From Thermincola carboxydiphila (lineage in GTDB: Bacteria; Bacillota; Thermincolia; Thermincolales; UBA2595): DNA of 32,705 bases. A program made the translations under genes and the position numbers. Where the stretch lies: NCBI GenBank assembly GCA_016841325.1, contig JAENZJ010000033.1:1-32705 (forward strand). The letters are read 5' to 3'. The notes below the pieces were generated by a model. It did no database searches. It had not been told where the DNA came from and saw nothing but the letters and a program-made list of their open reading frames with translations. Position 1 is the stretch's first letter. Every line of letters starts with the position of its first letter. Shown here one piece after another: positions 19,515 to 20,927 of the stretch.

Positions 19515-19757
19515 TTATTTCAGCCCGGCCCTGTTGAGAATAGTTTCTGCCACATCTTCAGGGCTTTTGAAGGGAAAATCTCCAGGGGTCAATAATTTTC
19601 CGGCTTCACCTGCCGTCATTTCAATCCCGTCAGCCCGGCATGTGGTTGCCGCTCCCTGGGGAAATGCCGCCAGGAGTCCTTCCGGTGATGTGATGGGAAA
19701 CTCCGCTCCCTCCAAGGCGCCCATAATCTGTTTCTTGATTGTCTCCCTTACTGACAT
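19515..19757 (-). CDS. MTH865-like small protein
   Basis: 80-residue protein strongly resembling the MTH865 family first seen in Methanothermobacter: [20 protein letters not shown], a TTC-containing stretch, TAGEAGKLL and [14 protein letters not shown]. These are small helical proteins of unknown function found in archaea and anaerobic bacteria. An upstream TTG would overlap the ribosome site; the ATG at 19757 (MSVRETIKK) has AAGGAG 10 nt before it. It is first in a two-gene operon with the DUF1638 gene, behind a promoter with a Crp-type site. Confidence 0.85.
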
Positions 19758-19804: not shown

Positions 19805-19846
19805 ATGTTACCGAATAATAAGACCAAATTCAGTAAAGTGGTTTAC
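19805..19846 (-). promoter_or_regulatory. Crp-type site and -10 box of the MTH865-DUF1638 operon
   Basis: The palindrome GTAAACCACTTTAC (minus strand, 19833-19846) is centred 32 bp before TAACAT (19805-19810). That places it at -41.5, the class II activator position of Crp/FNR proteins. The promoter has no -35 box, as expected for an activator-dependent one. The site matches the one at crp in 19 of 23 bases including flanks. Confidence 0.7.
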
Positions 19847-19864
19847 AAAACAGAAATTTATAGT

Positions 19865-20164
19865 TCAGTTGATTTTTCCAAAAAGCCTGTTAACTGCATC
19901 AGTGACAAGCAGACCGTCAAAACCGGCCTCGATCAGACTGCTTATCAGTCTTTTTTCATTGATAATGCCATTGTCCCCGGCCACCCCTCCACCTTCCCTT
20001 TCAATCATTAAAATGATACTCTTCAGGACTCTGCCTGTTTCAGAATCCTGCTTAATCTCATACAAAACCCAGCGTGCTGTTTCCAGATCCCTGACCAGCT
20101 TGCGAATTGCCGTCTCTGAACAATTAAATTTGTTGTAATCAAGCATTTTTAATCTGTTGTGCAT
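19865..20164 (-). CDS. Unknown 99-residue protein co-transcribed with crp
   Basis: Not recognised. The sequence is soluble and mainly helical by eye: an N-terminal part with one cysteine (FNCSETAIRKLVRDLE), a middle ILMIEREGGG turn and a C-terminal helix pair ending in VNRLFGKIN. The ATG at 20164 with AAGGA 10 nt upstream overlaps the end of crp by 26 bp; a second ATG at 20146 would overlap by 8 bp but has no ribosome site. Overlap with crp implies coupled expression, so it may modulate the regulator or belong to its response. Confidence 0.65.
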   Translation of the reverse strand: MHNRLKMLDYNKFNCSETAIRKLVRDLETARWVLYEIKQDSETGRVLKSIILMIEREGGGVAGDNGIINEKRLISSLIEAGFDGLLVTDAVNRLFGKIN

Positions 20165-20849
20165 TATTAATTTCTTCCTTTGTTGCTTTCCGGTCAGTCA
20201 GGTAGAACCGGCGCTCAAAAACAGCAATCCTGCCCTCACCCTTAAGGTCATTCAGAGTGTTGGTTACCATAACTCTGGAGGCATTGACCAGATTGGCCAG
20301 GTCCTGGTGATTTAACAAAATGTCAATCTTTACTCCTCTTGGAGTGTTCAGGCCATAATCACGTGCCAGGCGCTGCAGAACATCCATGACCCTGCCCTTC
20401 ACATCCCTGAATGCCAAATTAGCCATTTGTTCTGTATAGTTGTTCAGCTTGTCCGCCAATGTTTTAATTATTTTGAGGGAGGTCATCGGATTTTGCAGCA
20501 GGCGGGGAATATCCTCCCTGGCACAGGTACATACATAAGTATCCTCCATTGCCTTAGCATTCATAGTATGATCAACACTCTCAAAGATGGTGTTTTCCCC
20601 GAAAATGTCATCCTCCTGAAGAATATCCAGAATAATCTCCTTGCCATCTTCGGAAATCTTATAAAGAAGAACCCGTCCCGCCCGAACCAGATAGATGGTA
20701 TCCGCAGGGTCTCCTTCCGAGAAAATAGGGTCACCCTTCCGGTAAAAGAGGCCCCGGGCCAATTTGGTTACAGTCTGCTTTTCCTCTTCACTGAGGGCCT
20801 CAAATAATTCTAAGTCCTTCATGCACTTAATTTTGCCGGTCACTCTCAC
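20139..20849 (-). CDS. Crp/FNR-family transcriptional activator
   Basis: 236 residues from the GTG at 20849, which has AGAGG 5 nt upstream; the frame stays open far upstream but that part would cover the promoter and the divergent small gene. The cyclic-nucleotide-binding-like barrel is at about 10-125 (GDPIFSEGDPADTIYLVRAGRVLLYK, residues about 40-65), a long dimer helix follows, and the winged helix ends NHQDLANLVNASRVMVTNTL. Only scattered cysteines are present, not the FNR four-cysteine set, so the signal is not obviously an Fe-S cluster. A palindrome at -41.5 of its own promoter suggests autoactivation. Confidence 0.92.
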   Translation of the reverse strand: MRVTGKIKCMKDLELFEALSEEEKQTVTKLARGLFYRKGDPIFSEGDPADTIYLVRAGRVLLYKISEDGKEIILDILQEDDIFGENTIFESVDHTMNAKAMEDTYVCTCAREDIPRLLQNPMTSLKIIKTLADKLNNYTEQMANLAFRDVKGRVMDVLQRLARDYGLNTPRGVKIDILLNHQDLANLVNASRVMVTNTLNDLKGEGRIAVFERRFYLTDRKATKEEINNAQQIKNA

Positions 20850-20885
20850 AATCACCTCTTTAAAATAGGTCATAGATATATGTAA

Positions 20886-20927
20886 AGTATATAACAAATG
20901 TCCCTTTTTTTCAGTAAAGCACTTTAC
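20886..20927 (-). promoter_or_regulatory. Crp-type site and -10 box of the crp promoter
   Basis: GTAAAGCACTTTAC (20914-20927) is a perfect palindrome except its centre, 32 bp from the -10 box TATACT (minus strand, 20886-20891), hence at -41.5. The same site lies 31 bp upstream of the divergent small CxxCH gene and could influence it too. Confidence 0.7.

Follow-up and report, generated by a model that had tools for sequence, protein, structure and literature searches.

The canonical NtcA promoter of cyanobacteria carries a GTAN8TAC site at about -41.5 together with a -10 box of the form TAN3T (PMC3898017). The predicted sites of another Crp/Fnr-type regulator, HcpR2, are GTAACnnnnGTTAC, and HcpR proteins are said to lack the cysteines of the FNR type; in the same work, Rodionov et al. 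linked residue R180 of the recognition helix to G3 and residue E181 to A6 of the site (PMC1274295). With regard to the genes discussed below, the fitness of Phaeobacter mutants connected DUF1638 and a RamA-like protein with B12 reactivation, a link that is genetic only and for which no specific DUF1638 function was proposed (PMC5764234), and the function of MTH865 is not known (PMC9674854). MTH865 and DUF1638 are both poorly understood genes that Thermincola shares with methane-making archaea.

The window analyzed here, a stretch of 32,705 nucleotides of the thermophilic bacterium Thermincola carboxydiphila, contains on its minus strand, in this order, crp, a gene for a 99-aa protein, MTH865, and DUF1638 (Table 1). 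A sequence-only reading had described this locus as a two-promoter Crp-family mini-regulon, consisting of crp with its small partner and of MTH865-DUF1638, with identical class II geometry, and this description is backed by the conservation reported below. Both palindromes are present and exact, with the form GTAAA-N4-TTTAC, and the 23-mers that include their flanks are identical at 19 of 23 positions. As also stated in that reading, the palindrome centre lies 32 bp from the hexamer centre in both promoters, which places it at -41.5 of the predicted starts. Counted from the G of GTAAA, both -10 hexamers start at base 37, leaving 22 bp between the end of the palindrome and the -10. The view that neither promoter has a -35 box has to be given up for crp, which carries CTGAAA (4/6; spacer and total match in Table 1), a hexamer that shares one base, the operator's last, with GTAAAGTGCTTTAC. 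In the MTH865 promoter, the equivalent position is occupied by CTGAAT (3/6). Judged by sequence and relative to predicted start sites, the class II combination of an operator near -41.5, a -10 hexamer, and a weak or absent -35 is found at this locus. The ATG of MTH865 is preceded by a good ribosome-binding site. In addition, a gene divergent from crp, with an upstream region common to both, encodes a small secreted peptide whose CGECH sequence is a haem motif of the CxxCH type; the peptide is kept in genomes G004 and G005 and was not seen in G008, and on the plus strand toward it there is no -10 at class II distance from the site.

Table 1. Features of the crp and MTH865-DUF1638 locus (Thermincola genome G000, contig C27), in window positions
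Feature	Position	Strand	Remarks
CGECH peptide, 50 aa	20959-21112	+	secreted; CxxCH haem motif
Operator GTAAAGTGCTTTAC of crp promoter	20914..20927 (palindrome 20927-20914)	-	exact match; centre -41.5
Weak -35-like hexamer CTGAAA of crp	20909..20914	-	17 bp ahead of -10; 9/12 promoter match
-10 hexamer TATACT of crp	20886..20891	-	predicted start ~20879
crp, Crp/Fnr-family regulator	20139..20843	-	GTG start 20843 or 20849; start and Cys from relatives
99-aa partner	19865..20164	-	start overlaps crp end; helical
Operator GTAAACCACTTTAC of MTH865-DUF1638 promoter	19833..19846 (palindrome 19846-19833)	-	exact match; centre -41.5
-10 hexamer TAACAT of MTH865	19805..19810	-	predicted start ~19798
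MTH865-family protein, 80 aa	19515..19757	-	PF07747, 104 bits; ATG start at 19757, from relatives
DUF1638 protein, 187 aa	18950..19513	-	PF07796, 118 bits; 2 bases past MTH865

The regulator clade, its targets, and the sites co-occur in the phylum. Among 398 sampled genomes, with MTH865 counted above the family cut-off, MTH865 is present in 23 and the Crp clade in 24, with both in 20, MTH865 without the clade in 3, and the clade without MTH865 in 4 (Fisher P of 7e-27, a value that ignores shared ancestry). All 20 genomes with both have the site with at most one mismatch, either before MTH865 (17 genomes) or before an operon-leading DUF1638 (G047, G253, and G381). The exact site lies ahead of 17 of the 23 MTH865 genes, across ten families, a count that includes G122, in which the MTH865 site adjoins a Crp paralogue and the genome has no clade orthologue. 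No site was found in either G041 or G006, which carry MTH865 with neither a clade member nor an adjacent paralogue. The crp operator GTAAAGTGCTTTAC is kept in G004, G005, G008, G009, and G011, and both promoters carry the site in G005, G008, G009, and G011. In G004, MTH865 is reduced to a remnant, yet the site is kept, before DUF1638, and in a larger group with DUF1638 ahead of crp the site precedes DUF1638 instead. Among 31 distinct promoters, a -10 of the form TANNNT occurs at the 22-bp gap in 26, whereas any other gap is found in at most 5. A set of 30 genomes, the majority with the regulator, has 39 matches to the spaced pattern GTAAAN4TTTAC-N22-TANNNT, versus 6 for the control. Conservation of the palindrome upstream of the orthologues held when checked across the phylum, and the spaced pattern shows no excess in 28 phylum genomes without the Cys-bearing Crp clade (8 versus 12 for the control).

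The reading that best accounts for these data, to which we assign a probability of roughly 0.7, is that the crp product acts as a class II activator of the crp and MTH865-DUF1638 promoters. The crp-encoded dimer of the Crp/Fnr family would bind GTAAA-N4-TTTAC centred at -41.5 and would aid RNA polymerase at its own promoter, which serves crp and the 99-aa partner, and at that of MTH865-DUF1638. The helix R-V-M-V-T-N would read the GTA half-sites much like that of NtcA, the conserved Cys and CxC may hold an Fe-S cluster or act as a redox switch, and the likely role would be to match DUF1638, as a putative corrinoid/B12 reactivation helper, and MTH865 to a redox or one-carbon signal. We infer that the crp product itself would bind these sites and, from the geometry only, that it would activate both promoters. 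Activation is favored because the spacing is fixed over ten families, the -35 is weak, and so is the -10 of MTH865.

A much less probable reading is that the same regulator and sites serve mainly for repression or as a two-way switch, in which the dimer would cover the weak -35 and block sigma, and crp would keep both its own promoter and that of MTH865-DUF1638 repressed in the absence of a releasing signal. CTGAAA stands before TATACT with a 17-bp spacer, and 30 of the 31 distinct promoters have the G of the -35-like hexamer (base 16, at -33). Because this G is conserved and has no mirror on the opposite side of the palindrome, it looks like a -35 contact, namely, a base of TTG, rather than an operator base, and the weak crp -35, with its G conserved phylum-wide, leaves room for repression or dual control. 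However, an exact 22-bp spacing over ten families is the rule of a class II activator, which a repressor would not need, and the poor -35 matches (3 to 4 of 6) and the weak TAACAT of MTH865 make the promoters look activator-dependent. Activation is ranked well ahead of repression, albeit not beyond doubt.

The genome also contains a Crp paralogue on contig C26 (32050-32676), followed by a site (L158; G000:C26:31846-31887) and then by a PNPOx-like gene. This site brings the number with this form and spacing in the genome to three and is conserved in G004, G005, and G008, with a looser form in G009. The paralogue has the helix RVKVSQ and a Cys set (LCL, ICPG, LCA, and TDFC) that differs from that of crp. 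In view of the C26 site, the motif is probably common to crp and its paralogue, and the crp product cannot be credited with every site. It is improbable, on the other hand, that the main reader of the sites is a different Crp paralogue, such as the C26 LCLKEL/RVKVSQ protein, with crp as a bystander or co-user. The conserved site beside the C26 paralogue, the MTH865 site of G122 adjoining such a paralogue, and the sites that, in G253 and G342, separate a CooA-like Crp gene from a CO dehydrogenase gene are consistent with reading by paralogues, but adjacency and co-occurrence with the Cys/CxC clade in 20 of the 23 MTH865 genomes argue against it, as does the site upstream of crp itself, which fits autoregulation. 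The two loci with CooA-like genes, L147 (G342:C62:18440) and L148 (G253:C50:123780), have the same operator and spacing between the Crp gene and the CO dehydrogenase gene, and CO regulators of the phylum may use the same site. Of the sequence-only reading, the regulon and its geometry stand, while the missing -35 does not; the reading is further amended by the known type of the site and by a motif that the paralogue probably shares.

The palindrome by itself proves nothing, since the 3.43-Mb genome has 12 matches to GTAAAN4TTTAC and just as many to the reversed control; in a search allowing one mismatch, 3 were found in the window, compared with 1.1 expected. With the spacing included (GTAAAN4TTTAC-N22-TANNNT), this genome has 3 matches versus 0 for the control. 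Seven of the ten other exact palindromes of the genome lie inside long coding frames, and one, on C10, overlaps the end of such a frame; another, C7:23695, is intergenic with its TATACT 1 base too distant, and the remaining one is the site of the C26 paralogue. A conserved one-mismatch site, C36:371766 (L188), was set aside as belonging to another system, being one of the TTTACATTGGTAACAT-like repeats that form an array (L188, L180, and L186) upstream of a MarR-type gene and then hemE. The number of repeats in this genus-conserved array varies. Although palindrome counts at background are what chance palindromes with chance spacing would give, such an origin is ruled out, to near certainty, by the conservation of sequence, position, and spacing over ten families despite diverged flanks.

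The crp product belongs to the Crp/Fnr family, with matches above the cut-offs to PF00027 (cNMP_binding, 77.5 bits) and PF13545 (HTH_Crp_2, 44.9 bits). Its best NCBIfam family is NtcA (TIGR03697), at 90.5 bits versus a cut-off of 245, and its best PDB matches include structures of NtcA and CooA. When the recognition helix, R-V-M-V-T-N, is aligned with those of Escherichia coli CRP and FNR, R180 is kept, E181 is replaced by V, and R185 is mostly replaced by N; the retention of R180 with the loss of E181 fits a GTA-type site. The crp product has one Cys in KIKCMKDL and a CxC in VCTC, and the N-terminal Cys (in most cases in K/R-C-M-K-D/E-L) and the CxC are present in every full-length clade member read. 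The first Cys of the CxC aligns with Cys122 of FNR, and the Cys and CxC together suggest a redox or Fe-S sensor. When 47 sequences were placed in a tree, 19 of the members grouped as one clade with support of 98/95, and L071, L099, L101, and L102, which have the same three Cys, lie near it and are not firmly joined. A broader proposal, which we regard as tentative and rather doubtful, is that these proteins constitute an undescribed Crp-family sensor clade of the phylum, with the Cys and CxC as cofactor site, that is dedicated to corrinoid (B12) reactivation and MTH865 and senses redox, gas, or corrinoid state.

The MTH865 protein matches a solved structure (PDB 1iio; E value of 2.9e-26). A DUF1638 paralogue elsewhere in the genome follows genes read, from their sequences, as pterin-binding and corrinoid-binding methyltransferase parts. 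A site of this kind precedes PNPOx-family flavoprotein genes in G046 and G182 and, beside a paralogue, in G276. The simplest common theme of the targets would be corrinoid and redox upkeep. In addition, an Fe-S protein read as QueG-like adjoins crp or DUF1638 in G047, G158, and G046 (L099, L161, and L166). The 99-aa partner has no Pfam or NCBIfam match, and its AlphaFold2 model, which shows four helices with a pLDDT of 66, was built from two input sequences and is too weak for a fold search. Small genes with the YEIK core of the 99-aa partner follow crp in most relatives. Longer relatives of the partner (L095 and L093) have a C-terminal region with the look of a helix-turn-helix, in one of them with a weak HTH_Crp_2 match of 18.3 bits, below the cut-off. 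One possibility is that the 99-aa partner is a small protein that binds DNA or a regulator.

MTH865, whose structure is solved with no function known, and DUF1638 are orphan genes that gain a likely controller, and their link to vitamin B12 chemistry can be tested. Throughout a phylum of anaerobes, the two would form a single unit under a conserved, dedicated regulator. The crp product is worth purifying as a candidate Fe-S or redox sensor, and the promoters for its assay are named here. A literature search of partial coverage found no description of a crp/MTH865-DUF1638 regulon, which is no proof of novelty.

Of the described systems, the RamA-like corrinoid reactivation system (PMC5764234) involves the same DUF1638 family as the target gene here, but the companions of DUF1638 in Thermincola are MTH865 and a Crp regulator. 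FNR of E. coli and Fe-S Crp sensors resemble the crp product in family and, by sequence, in fold, and the Fe-S ligand Cys122 of FNR occupies the position of the first Cys of the clade's CxC. FNR has three N-terminal Cys, whereas the crp clade has one, so that the crp product lacks the full set of four FNR ligands (three N-terminal Cys and Cys122); the clade has an extra Cys two residues past the Cys122 position, and the FNR helix is different. The GTA-N8-TAC site does differ from the FNR site (TTGAT-N4-ATCAA versus GTAAA-N4-TTTAC), as the sequence-only reading had stated, but it is not unusual, being the canonical NtcA promoter form. HcpR2, of Clostridia and others, is likewise a Crp/Fnr regulator of anaerobes with a GTAA half-site, and E181 is replaced in both helices, by Pro in HcpR2 and by Val in the crp product. 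The core base of the site is A/T here in place of C/G, and the targets are not hcp; identity with HcpR2 was rejected on the basis of the site (GTAAAnnnnTTTAC versus GTAACnnnnGTTAC) and of the targets crp, MTH865, and DUF1638. NtcA promoters have the same half-sites, distance, and -10 form as those described here. That the crp product is NtcA is ruled out by its score (90.5 versus 244.95 bits), and it differs further in the Cys and CxC of its clade and in its targets, which are MTH865, DUF1638, and crp instead of nitrogen genes. The promoter design of the NtcA type is seen here outside cyanobacteria, with another target set.
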